Under the pieces are notes generated by a model. It ran no database searches, was not told where the DNA came from, and worked only from the letters and a program-made list of their open reading frames with translations. From Roseomonas marmotae (lineage in GTDB: Bacteria > Pseudomonadota > Alphaproteobacteria > Acetobacterales > Acetobacteraceae), in assembly GCF_017654485.1 (NCBI RefSeq), contig NZ_CP061091.1, positions 62,001 through 126,000 on the forward strand: a DNA stretch of 64,000 nt, given 5' to 3'. Below, one piece after another: positions 23,114-64,000 of the stretch. Positions within the stretch are counted from its first letter, which is position 1, and every line of letters begins with the position of its first letter. The translations under genes and the position numbers were made by a program.

Positions 23114-23412
23114 GATGCGATGCGCCATGACAGGCTGGCTTAGCGCGCGCCATCCGGGCGGTCCACGGCAAAGCCCGCCACCTCCGCGCGCGGCGGAAAT
23201 AGCGGCGGTTCCACGATTTAACCTTGCCAATTCATGAACAAACCTTCATTTAAGCCTCGATCCGGGCCCCTCTGGCGACCCGGCGGGTCTCTGCCGAGCC
23301 CGCCTTCGTGATGTCGGATCGACTTCTTCGCGCAACCGGGCCCGGCGCGCTCTCCTCCTCATGACAGGCGGATTCCGTGCGGCTGGCCCCCTGAGAGGAG
23401 GAGCCTTTCGGC

Positions 23413-56321: not shown

Positions 56322-56722
56322 AGCGCAACGTCCTGCCCTTCCTGGGCCTCGCCGGCGTCGCCATCCTCGTCATCTCCATGCTGCCGGGGCGGGAGCCGGG
56401 GCTGTCCCGCACCATGGCCGGCTTCAACCAGCCCGCCGCCACTATCTCCGGCCCCCTCTCCAACCTCTGCAGCGGCTGGGGCCATGCGCGGCGGGACTGC
56501 GCCGCCTTCGTCCGCCACTTCATGAACGGCCTCGCCGAAAGCCGCCCCGAACTCGGCCTCTGCGTGCCGCCCCCCGCCGCCCTGGCGGAATGGACCGTCG
56601 CCGCCCTGCACGGTGTCCCCGCCGACGAACCCTGGGCCGCCCCGCTGGAAGCCGCCCTCACCCAGGCCCGCCCGGCCCCGCCCCTGCCTCCCTGCGCCCC
56701 CGAGAAGGCCCGCCCGACATGA
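56309..56722 (+). CDS. Exported small protein, Rap1a/Tai-like
   Basis: A 137-residue protein with an N-terminal hydrophobic segment ([19 protein letters not shown]) acting as signal or anchor. The rest has four cysteines, including [22 protein letters not shown] and GLCVPP, a pattern similar to Rap1a/Tai-type immunity-like proteins. The similarity is weak and from memory. It overlaps the preceding membrane protein gene and ends in an ATGA overlap with purQ, so it is translated with the pur genes. A role in purine synthesis is not implied. Confidence 0.6.
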
Positions 56723-57417
56723 ACGCCGCCATCATCATCTTCCCCGGCACGAACCGGGAGCGTGACATGGCCATCGCCCTGCAGAAGGCGACCGGCCGCA
56801 AGCCCGCCATGCTCTTCCACCAGGAAACGGCACTCCCCGCCGGCACCGACCTCGTCGTCCTGCCCGGCGGCTTCTCCCACGGCGACTACCTCCGCTGCGG
56901 CGCCATGGCCGCCCGCTCCCCCATCATGGACGCGGTGCGCGACTTCGCGGCCAAGGGCGGCCACATCCTCGGCGTCTGCAACGGCTTCCAGATCCTGACG
57001 GAAGCGGGCCTGCTGCCCGGCGCCCTGCTCCGCAACGCCTCGCTCCGCTTCCTCTCCATGGACTGCCACCTGCGGGTGGAGCGCACGGACACCCCCTTCA
57101 CCAGCCAGTGGCGCAAGGGCGACATCTTCCGCGCCCCCATGGCGCATGGCGACGGCAACTACTTCGCCGATGACGCGACCCTGGAACGCCTCGAAGGCCA
57201 GGGCCAGGTCGCCTTCCGCTACGTCACCCCGGAAGGGGAGGCGACGGAAGCCGCCAACCGCAACGGCGCCCGCAACAACATCGCCGGCATCCTCTCCGAC
57301 AACCGCCGCATCCTCGGCATGATGCCGCACCCCGAGGATCTGGTGGACCCGCTGATGGGCGGGGAGGACGGCCTGCCGCTCTTCCGCTCCATCGCCGGAA
57401 CCTTCGCCACCGCCTGA
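56719..57417 (+). CDS. purQ: Phosphoribosylformylglycinamidine synthase subunit PurQ
   Basis: A 232-residue class I glutamine amidotransferase subunit that supplies ammonia to PurL. The nucleophile Cys is in [19 protein letters not shown] and the catalytic His/Glu in [29 protein letters not shown] is a PurQ hallmark. It is coupled to the upstream gene by ATGA. A strong hairpin follows immediately, so transcription probably stops before the inserted island that separates it from purL. Confidence 0.96.
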
Positions 57418-59517: not shown

Positions 59518-60618
59518 CTAGTGTCCTGATTCTGTAGTTCCTCCGATCTTCTGGGTGCGCTGGCAGAAGCGCTGTATGGCACCGAGGATGTCGTCGGCGG
59601 ACTTGGTCCAGCGGAACGGTCTGGGATCGACGTTATGGGCTTCGATGAAGGCACGGATGTCGCGCTCGAGCGCCTGGGTGGAACGATGGATGCCGCGCCG
59701 GATCTGCTTGTCGGTGATGAGGGCGAAGAAGCGTTCGACCTGGTTGATCCAGGAGGCGCCGGTGGGCGTGAAATGGACATGCCAGCGCGGGCGCTTGAGC
59801 AGCCAGTCGCGGATCGGCTTGGTCTTGTGGGTGGCGTAGTTGTCCATCACGAGATGGACGTCGAGATCCTGGGGCACGGCTTTCTCCACCTGATCCAGGA
59901 ACTTCCGGAACTCGGTGGAGCGGTGCTTAGGGTAGCAGTGGCCGATCACTGTCCCGGTCGCGATGTCGAGCGCTGCGAACAGCGAGGTAGTGCCGTGGCG
60001 GGTATAGTCGTGCGTGCGCCGCTCCGCCTGGCCGGGACGCATCGGCAGCAGGGGCTGGGTGCGGTCGAGCGCCTGGATCTGGGACTTCTCATCCACGCAC
60101 AGCACCAGCGCGCGGTCCGGCGGTGCCAGGTAGAGCCCGACGATGTCGCGCACCTTCTCGACAAAGAGCGGGTCATTGGAGAGCTTGAAGGTCTCGCTCC
60201 GGTGCGGCTGCAGCCCGAAGGCCCGCCAGATGCGGTGGATGGTCGATGGCGCATACCCGACGGTCCGGGCCATGGAGCGCAGCGACCAATGCGTCGCACC
60301 TGGCGGCGTTGTTTCCAGCGTCAGCCGGATGGTATCGGCGATCGCGTCATCGCCGATCGTGCGCGGCGTGCCTGGTCTGGGCTCATCGAGCAACCCGTCC
60401 AGGCGATGCACGGCGAAGCGCCGACGCCACTTTGAAACCGTGTTGGCGTCCGCGCCGACCTCAGCGCTGATCGCCTTGTTCTCCAGACCCGCGGCGGCGG
60501 CCAACACAATGCGGGCCCGGCGCGCCATCGCCTGTCCGGTCTTGTGAGCCCGAGCCAGGAATTCCAGTTCCCGACGTTCGGCCTCACTCAGCCTAATCGT
60601 CACCGCCGGTTTGCCCAT
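59518..60618 (-). CDS. IS630-family transposase
   Basis: A 366-residue DDE transposase. An N-terminal helix-turn-helix region (about residues 10-75) includes [20 protein letters not shown]. The catalytic triad is intact: Asp in [11 protein letters not shown], Asp in [10 protein letters not shown] and Glu in [15 protein letters not shown] lies before the ATG at 60618; an ATG at 60645 within the right repeat is less likely. The TAG stop is completed by the TA target and the adjacent host base, so the reading frame runs exactly to the end of the element. The copy appears functional. Confidence 0.93.
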
Positions 60619-60673
60619 CGCGGCTCTCCCTACGATTACCTGCATGATCGTAGGAATTTCGCGATCAGGATAC
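59521..60673 (-). mobile_element. IS630-family insertion sequence, complete
   Basis: The element is 1153 bp, flanked on both sides by TA (59519-59520 and 60674-60675), the target duplicated by this family. The terminal inverted repeats match at 21 of the first 28 positions: GTGTCCTGAT on the left and GTATCCTGAT on the right, read inward. The original target was CTAG. One intact transposase gene fills it. Confidence 0.93.
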
Positions 60674-60736
60674 TAGGCGCGCCGCCGGTCACAGGGCGCG
60701 GCGCGGGCGGGGATGGAAGGTGGCGCGGGTGGCCTT

Positions 60737-60790
60737 GCAGGGGCTCTGCCCCTGCACCCCGGCAGGAACCTGAGGTTCCTGCACCTCCCA
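60737..60790 (+). repeat. Two-hairpin intergenic repeat, copy C
   Basis: First hairpin: GCAGGGGC / GCCCCTGC, 3-nt loop (60737-60755). Second hairpin: CAGGAACCT / AGGTTCCTG around one base (60763-60781). The joint is ACCCCGG and the element ends with ACCTCCC. The plan matches copies A and B at 27.6-27.8 kb. It abuts the end of the reverse transcriptase gene. Confidence 0.55.
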
Positions 60791-62528
60791 CTAATCTTGC
60801 TGTAGCTTTTTGATGAAATAATCGTTCGTTTGAATCTTCATATTTTTCATTAATGGCCGCTTCTCTTCGTCAGTCATTTTTTTGTAATTTAAAATTGCAT
60901 AGTATATGCTTCTTTGAATAGAAATTGTCGCGGACGGAAATACATCCACAGCAAGCTTTTTAATTCTTTGCCTGTCGAGCTGCTGGTAACCTAAGCATAT
61001 TGCCTCCCTAAAGAAAGCTATACTGTCTGTGGTCCTATGCTCATCTACAACTTGATAGATTAGTTTTGGATTTTGATACTCAATATGAGATGCTAGTCGG
61101 AGCAGAGGTATCTTGAATGAGTAGCTCAGATGTTTGAAACCAATCACATCGGCAAGTCCATCCCGTAGTTTAATCTTTTTCTCAGGCTCTATCCTATCTG
61201 CGTCTTTCATCAAGGCATCCACTATATAAAATATAGAAGTCAACCTTGACCTCAATATAGAGTAGAGAATTTCCACATCTTGATTTACATATATGAAATA
61301 CTTCACTAAATTACGAATGATCAATTCTTTATCGGCGCCGCTTATATTATCAAGTTCCTTGATATGTTCTTCTAAGTTAATTTTAGCTAAAGATTTAATG
61401 GCTTCTTTCCCTGGCTCTCTATAAAACCGCGAGATACTAGATCTACCGCTAACCACAACCCGTCTTGTAAACTCAGTTTTTGCGTTTAGGTCGATGGAGA
61501 CATGTGTGGGGTGCAGCTGATCTTGGATTTGATCTGAAATCTCTTTACCTTCTAGAATTTGGACGATATTCGTTTTTCGAGGGTTAATAGATAAACCTTC
61601 TTCGATAAGCAGTTCACTTAAAACGCGCATAATTTCATGGCCTTGGGCCTTACTTTCAGCAAACAGCCTGAAATCATCCACATACCTGACAAAGCAAATA
61701 CCTTGCTCAGTAAGTTTATTATCGACCCCTATAAGGGCCGCTTCGCACAGTATTCTGCTTGCGTCCGATCCCACAGGAACCCCGAAGCTTCTACGATCTC
61801 CAGCCCACTGAAGCAAAACTTCGCGCACAAGCTTAATGTATCTTTCCTCACAGCCAGCATCATTAAGATGATTTTCTAAAGGATGGTTCCCAATTCTCTC
61901 AAAAAAGTTTGATATATCAGTCGAAATCTTCCACTTACCGATGTAGTTGTTGGAAATTTCTCCAGATTTTTGACGGAACGAGTTATATCCATAATCGCTG
62001 TCGAAAAGCTTTCCTGGCACAGATGCCATTCTATGCGAGTGGATCACGCCATCAATTTTAGGAATTCTACAAGCTTCGATTTTTTCGAAAAGCATTATAC
62101 ACAAAGATAAATACTTAACCGCATCAAATGGGTCTATCCATGCAACTCGACGGTAAGAAAATTCATCCTTGGGCAGCATATAGTAATGAATTCGTCCAAT
62201 GCGCTCTATGTCGAGATTGGCTACACTTAAGAATTTCAGCGCAATTTTATTCGCTTCCCTTCGGAAATCCTCCGGATTCTTGATGATTTCGCCGCATTCT
62301 AGAGGCTGTTATGAACCACTCATAACATGCTGGATCTGCTCGGCCTTCCGCAGGTAGGTCCGCTGGGGAAGGCCAGCAAAATCAGTTCTCTAGCACCAGG
62401 TTCATAACAGCCTCTAAGGGGTCCAAAAATGTTGGGGCTTTGAATATATCATCAAAACCTTTTTCAATTACATGACTTATCGCAAGGTTTACTGCAGCTT
62501 CTCTCCGCTGAAATTCTTGCTGAATCAC
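60791..62528 (-). pseudogene. Reverse transcriptase gene (defence-type) split by a MITE
   Basis: The uninterrupted part (60791-62179 from the first ATG) encodes 462 residues of a reverse transcriptase: motif A Asp in ISTDISNFFERI, motif B in FGVPVGSDASRILCEAAL, catalytic YVDD in FVRYVDDFRLFA and the following NPRKTNIV. The frame stays open upstream to 62309 without an ATG, where it meets a 113-bp MITE. Skipping the MITE plus one TA, the same frame continues (DIFKAPTFLDP joined to LECGEIIKNPEDF style sequence) to a GTG at 62528 preceded by GGAG. The restored protein has 540 residues, with the catalytic Asp at about 166, 246 and 247. GC content is far below the host's. No intron RNA domains or maturase region are seen, so it fits unknown-group/defence-associated RTs rather than a group II intron. 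Family assignment is inference. Confidence 0.82.
62302..62414. mobile_element. 113-bp MITE inserted in the RT gene
   Basis: The element has perfect 16-bp terminal inverted repeats, GAGGCTGTTATGAACC at 62302-62317 and its complement at 62399-62414. It is flanked by TA on both sides (62300-62301 and 62415-62416). It encodes no protein. The interior contains an 8-bp hairpin (GGCCTTCC / GGAAGGCC). TA targeting fits IS630/Tc1 or some IS5 groups; its termini differ from those of the IS630 copy 1.6 kb away, so another transposase must have moved it. Confidence 0.9.
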
Positions 62529-62565
62529 GGTCACTCCAATAACAAGGTCTCGCTACGATGCCACC

Positions 62566-62624: not shown

Positions 62625-62653
62625 TTGCCTTTTAAGGAATTTTGTCCTATAAT
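62625..62653 (+). promoter_or_regulatory. Consensus promoter for the transposase-domain gene and purL
   Basis: TTGCCT and a perfect TATAAT are 17 bases apart, followed within 20 bases by AGGAGG and the gene start. It faces away from the RT promoter, so the two units are divergent. Confidence 0.75.
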
Positions 62654-62670: not shown

Positions 62671-63252
62671 GTGTCTACCATGACCATGCCCAGCTTGATC
62701 ACTAACCTCCAATGGTCCGCCCTCCTCCCCTACCTCCTCCCCCGCGCGCCCCAAGGCCGCCGCCTGGAGGAACACCGGGAGCGGATGGAAGCCATCTTCT
62801 TCATCGCCACCTCCTCCCTCCCGTGGTGCGCCCTCCCCGCGCGCTACGGCCGCGCGGATACCGTCTCCCGCTACTTCCGCCGCCTCACCCATGCCGGGCT
62901 CTGGCAGAAGCTGCTGCACGCGCTGGCGGAAGCAGCACCCGGCCACCCGCTGCGGCAGCTTGAGGAAAAAATTCTCCGCGCCTGCCGCCGCGCGCACCGC
63001 ATCCTCGGCCTGCCCTTCCTCGTGCTCATCCGCCGCCTCAACCTGCGCCGCGCCCTCCCCGGACCGCCCTGGCTGCTGCCCGACCCGCTTTTGTCCGAAA
63101 CCCTCGCACGGGTAAAAATCACCCCGCCGCCACCGGGCGAATACGGGCACAGGACACGCCATGCCCGCCTTCTCGCCACCCTCCGGCGCCTGCACCGGGA
63201 TGCCGGCGGGCGCCGCCGCATCCCCCGTTCCGTGCGCCTGGCCTGGGCATGA
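62671..63252 (+). CDS. IS5-type transposase N-terminal-domain protein coupled to purL
   Basis: A 193-residue protein whose first 75 residues resemble the N-terminal (DUF4096-like) domain of IS5-family transposases: [19 protein letters not shown], then [20 protein letters not shown] and a tail like [15 protein letters not shown]. The DDE catalytic domain is absent; the rest is a basic, Arg-rich stretch with no recognised domain. AGGAGG lies 4 nt ahead of the GTG at 62671; an ATG at 62680 is an alternative. The stop overlaps the purL start (ATGA). Codon use is host-like. It may be a domesticated DNA-binding protein rather than a decayed IS, because no IS ends were found. Confidence 0.7.
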
Positions 63253-64000
63253 GTGCGGATATGCCAAATCCACCCCTGGACAACGGGCGCGCGGGTGCCG
63301 ACAAGGCAGGCATGTCGACCCCCGTCCTCCTCGCCCCCGACCGCGCGAAGCAGCTCTCGGCCGAATTCGGCCTGAAGCCGGATGAGTATGAGCGCGTTCT
63401 CACCATCCTCGGCCGCGCGCCGTCGCTGACGGAACTCGGCATCTTCTCCGTCATGTGGTCCGAGCACTGCTCGTATAAATCCAGCCGCCACTGGCTGAAG
63501 CAGCTCCCCACCAAGGCCCCCTGGGTCATCCATGGCCCCGGTGAGAATGCCGGCGTCATCGATATCGGTGAGGGCCTGGCCGCCATCTTCAAGATGGAAA
63601 GCCACAACCACCCCAGCTTCATCGAGCCCTACCAGGGCGCCGCCACCGGCGTCGGCGGCATCCTGCGCGATGTCTTCACCATGGGCGCCCGCCCCATCGC
63701 CAACCTCAACGCGCTGCGCTTCGGTGATCCCTCCCTGCCCAAGACCCGGCAGGTGCTGGATGGCGTGGTGCGCGGCATCGGCGGCTACGGCAATTGCGTC
63801 GGCGTCCCCACGGTGGGCGGAGAGGTGAACTTCCACCCCGCCTACAACGGCAACCCCCTGGTCAATGCCATGACCGTCGGCATCGCGCCGAAGGACCGCA
63901 TCTTCCTCAGCGCCGCCGCCGGCATCGGCAACCCCGTGGTCTATGTGGGTTCCAAGACGGGCCGCGACGGCATCCACGGCGCCACCATGTCCTCCGCCGA
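63249..64000 (+). CDS. purL: Phosphoribosylformylglycinamidine synthase subunit PurL (partial)
   Basis: The first 250 residues of the large ATP-binding subunit of FGAM synthase; the gene runs off the right edge. Family motifs are [58 protein letters not shown] and [15 protein letters not shown]. The ATG at 63249 overlaps the upstream stop (ATGA); an alternative ATG at 63312 gives [12 protein letters not shown], closer to the usual N-terminus. It would normally follow purQ directly, but here is 5.8 kb away. Confidence 0.96.

Follow-up and report, generated by a model that had tools for sequence, protein, structure and literature searches.

Minimal mobile elements are short pieces of cargo that vary between flanks which are themselves conserved. 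A similar arrangement is described under the name of small variable segments in parts of PMC2884548, and sections of PMC10250203 describe the core defence hotspots cDHS1 and cDHS2 of Pseudomonas aeruginosa as conserved flanks that enclose variable defence cargo, often without a mobility gene. Among the reverse transcriptases (RTs) that serve in defence, DRT8 (UG7) carries a PD-(D/E)XK domain according to passages of PMC12596737, and how it works is still unsettled in the portions of PMC13213688 and PMC13314766 that deal with it. A DRT8/UG7-like RT gene, split by an IS5-type miniature inverted-repeat transposable element (MITE), lies in the 64,000-nucleotide stretch of Roseomonas marmotae analysed here and called the window (assembly GCF_017654485.1, contig NZ_CP061091.1, positions 62,001 to 126,000). 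The interpretation favored here, with a probability of roughly 85%, is that this RT was acquired as the cargo of a slot ahead of purL and that the MITE subsequently inactivated it; the locus would thus probably represent a young knockout of an acquired, predicted defence RT. The gene is laid out as follows, in window coordinates:

60791..62528, minus strand: RT gene, whole span from GTG at 62528 to the stop at 60791, interrupted by the element of 113 bp
60791..62299, minus strand: 3' portion of the RT gene (502 residues plus stop), with YVDD motif, DRT8/UG7-like
60791..62179, minus strand: 462-residue open reading frame (ORF) from an internal ATG (62179), product possibly still made
62302..62414, no strand: IS5-type MITE, 113 bp, with TA at both edges (62300-62301 and 62415-62416)
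62418..62528, minus strand: 5' portion of the RT gene (37 residues, beginning with GTG), matching the N-terminus of DRT8 homologues

The minus-strand frame contains no stop between 60791 and the element edge, and a second open stretch of compatible phase leads from the other edge to the GTG at 62528. Reading of the ORFs thus bears out what a preliminary description of this locus had claimed, the matching phase of two open parts being a 1-in-3 event by chance alone. The end coordinate of that description, 62555, lies slightly beyond the gene start at 62528; the GTG start and ribosome binding site that it proposed stand, with GGAG located 5 bases upstream of the GTG, and the case for its promoter is weak (the candidate GTGACA-18-TAAGAT scores 9/12, and nine promoter-like sites are found in the region vs 4.6 expected). 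In-frame stop codons are present inside the 113-bp element, and translation from the GTG would stop about 11 residues past the junction, within the element, so that the full enzyme would no longer be made. The RT part has a GC content of 39.4% vs 69.0% for the window, and for this reason its DNA was probably acquired.

The earlier identification of the gene as an RT is upheld when its pieces are searched separately against profiles. The 462-residue ORF matches the PADLOC profile Drt8 at 1.6e-83 (279.7 bits, from profile position 60), which is the best class by 156 bits over the next, RT_UG21 (123.6 bits); Pfam reports RVT_1 alone (5.7e-17), and the catalytic YxDD motif is present as YVDD in the RT protein P0001. 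These matches support membership in a defence-associated class, DRT8/UG7-like. As to the PD-(D/E)XK domain, Pfam finds RVT_1 alone and the structure of P0001 predicted without an alignment is too poor to use (mean predicted local distance difference test score, pLDDT, of 42); the related solved structures, those of UG15, AbiK, and intron and Cas-linked RTs, are all distant. Searches with the Drt8 profile, own genome included, found matches in 4/398 genomes of a phylum sample at 1e-40 and 7/385 of a class sample at 1e-35; the class of genome G605 (loci and genomes are given here by our own L and G handles) yielded 4/369, G605 having been counted previously. This makes 12 other genomes in total, with no internal stop in any match. 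In whole-genome scoring the RT reaches 286 bits and the 12 others 386-537 (ten genomes), 315 (one) and 139 (one). Judged by its score relative to the ten, the RT is a divergent DRT8 member. In a family search at 1e-20, nine of 397 genomes matched, own included, the other eight at 30-37% over the RT core, and none of the 13 other genus genomes in that search gave a match. Genome contigs gave one distant RT locus (27% identity), plasmids distant relatives only (best an unannotated Caballeronia gene, 32% identity), and viral contigs and phages no match. Rfam at gathering scores shows no RNA partner for the RT within the window. With regard to protein partners, a neighbour common to DRT8 regions was seen by eye in two of ten, and eight were without a shared neighbour. 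At L071 (6963-7682) and L072 (4678-5388) similar-looking genes of 236-239 residues overlap the end of the DRT8 homologue, again by eye, and it is possible that they are a DRT8 partner.

The short 5' piece was compared with a set of 13 homologues (12 genomes and the Caballeronia plasmid gene), from which the most divergent, L065, was dropped to leave a profile of 12. The two pieces align to this profile in order, the 37-residue piece at positions 8-31 and the 502-residue piece at 48-509. The 5' piece scores 8.0 bits, a value reached by none of 2000 shuffles; only six of 2629 window segments score comparably, and these are the RT itself, since they fall at consecutive profile positions 65-272. 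The match, weak but above controls, suggests that the N-terminal region is present on the far side of the MITE. Relatives that bear this N-terminus have 28-32% identity to the RT; homologues cover the junction without an insert, so that the preliminary description withstands the refuting test that it named itself (homologues that begin at the internal ATG), and no close orthologue was found. Compared with DRT8, the RT is alike in best PADLOC class, in length, and in N- and C-terminal regions matched in pieces, and differs in its lower score and in the MITE break.

The arms of the element (62300-62317 and 62399-62416) are complementary at 18/18 positions, TA included, and the genome (G000, 4.83 Mb) holds five copies that are all 100% identical. 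All five are flanked by TA, four in the context CTA/TAG and the RT copy in CTA/TAA. Both earlier statements about the insert, that it is a MITE and that it arrived recently, agree with these inverted ends, TA flanks and five identical copies; it is the identity of the copies that supports a young insertion in the RT gene. Full-length relatives, of 71-79% identity, occur in 2/16 other genus genomes. The 16-base MITE end, at up to two mismatches, is found at 24 sites in the genome: 10 MITE ends, the 10 ends of five 860-bp insertion sequence (IS) elements, and four single ends. The 860-bp elements share 14 of 16 end bases with the MITE, the transposase of one of them matches IS5_3 at 1.3e-58, and L032 and L033, both IS ends, have their target sequence in common with MITE copy L001. 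The element is thus an IS5-type MITE that could probably be moved in trans by the 860-bp IS5 elements. The target CAGGTAGTGNTA is recurrent for the IS5 elements and the MITE, being seen on both sides at L001 and L038, on one side at L032, L033, L034, L036 and L040, and on neither at L042. The element is like IS5-family MITEs in being short, with inverted ends, TA flanks, identical copies and a resident IS of matching ends; however, it resembles this IS in the ends only, blastn finding nothing in the interior beyond 8-base chance matches. An origin of the MITE by internal deletion of the 860-bp IS was dropped for lack of an interior match.

The surroundings of the RT gene, which the preliminary description passed over, form a slot with variable cargo, whose features are these (the names purC, purQ, purL, argG, alaS and SDR were assigned by sequence match in this analysis):

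56722..57417, plus strand: purQ, conserved, across the slot from purL
59522..60672, minus strand: insertion that we take to be IS630-like (Pfam DDE_3), lying between the border of the slot and the SDR gene
60673..60790, no strand: left slot border, conserved, which folds into two tandem hairpins at 60736-60782
62625..62653, plus strand: promoter-like site TTGCCT-17-TATAAT, the best of the region, with a spacer palindrome at 62634-62649, upstream of the DUF4096 gene
62680..63252, plus strand: stand-alone DUF4096 gene, right border of the slot, overlapping purL by ATGA (four bases)
63249..63998, plus strand: 5' part of purL, downstream of the DUF4096 gene

Comparison with six genus relatives by blastn (cut-off 1e-5) places the left limit of homology at 60786-60790 in four and at 60704 in L095, with no border match in L099, and the right restart between 62687 and 62719 in all six; nothing between the borders aligns. 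The IS630-like insertion is not at the same point in L095-L097, the three of the six with both sides aligned. The genus set comprised 17 genomes, own included, of which 13 were readable beside purL, three had a contig ending too soon, and G374 was left out. Eleven of the 13, again counting the own genome, carry AT-rich cargo; the slot at L099 contains no AT-rich DNA, and next to purL at L102 no DUF4096 and no purQ was found. Among the genus cargo, inspection by eye and PADLOC point to a SIR2-kinase protein, a DUF262-like protein and ATPases. DUF4096 (PF13340) is the only Pfam domain of the stand-alone border gene, no DDE domain being found, and the gene aligns with the IS5_3 transposase model at its N-terminal end (positions 2-86 of 258). 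By these profile matches it is the N-terminal domain of an IS5 transposase, of the same family as the 860-bp IS. No related solved structure was found for it, and its predicted structure (mean pLDDT 44) is too poor to use. Elsewhere in the window, terC RNA at 23254-23326 is the sole Rfam match at gathering score.

Such slots extend beyond the genus. At 1e-12, 60/249 family genomes (the own among them) have DUF4096 matches, often several each, with the qualification that many matches sit in longer frames and could be full transposases or chance overlaps; a class sample gave 2/142 genomes, the own and one weak match. Forty regions, drawn from the better-scoring matches and neither random nor complete, were read and grouped by downstream flank as purL (10 plus the window), argG (11), alaS (3) and two pairs, the argG and alaS names resting on one member each; 11 regions were linked to no other by flank, the comparison covering all regions but L174. 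Upstream of DUF4096, 25/38 loci contain a 600-base window of less than 55% GC, and downstream none does (L174, with no real upstream stretch, and L170, which is short, were excluded). From 31 loci (10 genus, 21 others) 40 cargo proteins were taken, hand-picked as the main AT-rich ORFs and omitting about nine smaller or weaker ORFs and the loci that hold only such ORFs. Among these 40 and the RT there is not one homologous pair at 1e-4. PADLOC at 1e-5 matched 16/40, in 15/31 loci, vs 0/50 neighbouring ORFs, a control picked mechanically as the longest ORFs, some of which are perhaps not genes. Defence-like cargo includes a CBASS-type cyclase and AriAB-like, ThsA-like, HEC-04-like and NsnB-like proteins; several matches are to a generic ATPase or methyltransferase, and those at L101, L152, L175 and L179 are no better than 3e-10. 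No integrase or recombinase was found in the 10 of 40 cargo proteins scanned with Pfam. The cargo at L097, L100, L107, L142, L155, L163-L166 and L169 has no PADLOC match at 1e-5, Pfam adding HATPase in L155 and L165 and a weak TIR-like match in L164; such cargo beside DUF4096 may include candidates for new defence genes. L142 (G000:C1:335500-344000) is the second DUF4096 slot of the own genome, with an argG-type flank and a 542-residue cargo protein that has neither PADLOC nor Pfam match. MITE copy L004 lies in this slot just upstream of the protein, about 2 kb from the second DUF4096 gene.

The edges of the slots were set from pairs with similar flanks and different cargo. On the left, homology stops just past the hairpin for two argG-slot sets (L155/L161/L169 and L147/L149) and for one purL-slot pair (L172/L176), inside the hairpin stretch in L158/L166, and at another hairpin-like sequence in L159/L167. 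On the right it restarts at the DUF4096 promoter in L158/L166, L147/L149 and L159/L167, and within the first DUF4096 codons in L155/L161/L169 and the purL slot of the genus. The promoter bears a palindrome of AGG-N8-CCT type; TAGGAAAACTTGCCTA, at up to four mismatches, is present at 20/52 loci vs 0.5% of shuffles, and the palindrome of the window is a variant with six mismatches inside the best promoter-like site of the region. L172, where the hairpin and the DUF4096 match are 127 bases apart, resembles an empty slot. The own genome shows the hairpin pattern only twice, in each of its two DUF4096 slots at the border opposite the DUF4096 gene; the second is 3.9 kb upstream of the second DUF4096 gene, aligns with the left border of L149, and is separated from the AT-rich cargo by a GC-rich stretch.

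In the proposed course of events, an AT-rich DRT8/UG7-like defence RT would have arrived horizontally as cargo between the hairpin border and the DUF4096 gene ahead of purL. Exchange of cargo would proceed, most simply, by homologous recombination in the conserved flanks (the hairpin side and the DUF4096/purL side) with related donors, and would be scarless. Later the MITE, probably moved in trans by the 860-bp elements, would have landed at a TA after about 37 RT codons, perhaps favored by a TA density that is 7.7 times higher in the AT-rich block than in window positions 1-59500.

Several observations weigh against this course of events. No close intact orthologue of the RT was found among genome contigs, plasmids, viral contigs, phages or family genomes; 13/38 DUF4096 loci are without AT-rich cargo; and the hairpin is common in five other genomes, where 7/56 sites are within 4.5 kb upstream of an observed DUF4096 match, so that specificity of the hairpin to slots was dropped for those genomes. 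The 5' piece is weak at 8 bits, and its 37 residues alone give no PADLOC match. The 462-residue fragment could still be produced, and since it contains the RT core and YVDD one could suppose that the true start is the internal ATG at 62179, the upstream frame being chance and the MITE harmless in a 5' leader. The dropped homologue L065, which matches Drt8 only from position 67, likewise fits such a start. However, the 12 profile homologues match Drt8 from position 1-5, where the 462-residue ORF does so only from 60; the 5' piece fits its place in the profile better than all 2000 shuffles; and none of the 13 homologues is a short ORF that begins where the internal ATG lies, in keeping with the upstream start of the preliminary description. 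A start at 62179 is accordingly judged highly improbable.

It may also be asked whether the RT was already useless, for instance through a missing partner, when the MITE merely hit decaying or AT-rich DNA. The absence of a visible partner gene in the slot, the adjoining IS630-like insertion and the density of TA would suit this, but the frame is otherwise open over 502 codons, the IS630-like insertion is outside the conserved left border, and eight of the ten DRT8 regions viewed by eye themselves lack a shared neighbour; prior decay seems unlikely, though not negligibly so. A further possibility, that the MITE is a reversible switch whose precise excision in part of a population toggles the RT, draws on the frame phases that agree across the MITE and on the IS5_3 transposase genes present in the genome. 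IS5-type elements generally excise precisely only on rare occasions, and no excised form was seen, although one assembled genome could hardly show one; a switch is considered very unlikely. Knockout of an acquired defence RT by the MITE remains the preferred explanation.

A bolder and rather doubtful extension concerns the DUF4096 protein, which could be a domesticated IS5 DNA-binding domain that binds its own promoter palindrome and the AGGA...TCCT border hairpin. It would thereby mark, regulate and perhaps guide a family-wide exchange of cassettes, swapping defence cargo ahead of purL, argG and alaS and buffering their expression. The slots share with core defence hotspots conserved flanks, non-homologous cargo and defence enrichment (the PADLOC contrast given above). 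They differ in having one or two main ORFs as cargo per locus and, as a right flank, an IS5 transposase domain that stands alone behind its own promoter and recurs at several loci of a genome, the constancy of this gene being partly by choice because the slots were located through it. They are like small variable segments and minimal mobile elements in the short cargo that varies between conserved flanks, with no integrase seen in the ten cargo proteins scanned, and unlike them in the recurrence of a border gene, often with a hairpin, at different loci and in their defence-enriched cargo. The DUF4096-marked slot family is undescribed as far as literature searches show; the slots are a variant of the defence-hotspot kind, and the broken RT belongs to kinds already known.

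The broken RT offers a small, neat example of how a probable defence gene is silenced by a mobile element. For the family at large, the stand-alone DUF4096 gene, often together with a hairpin border, serves as a sequence marker by which defence genes can be found, and since 16/31 cargo loci hold no tested protein with a PADLOC match at 1e-5, new defence genes are possible among them. The slots also make the integrase-free swapping of single defence genes directly testable.
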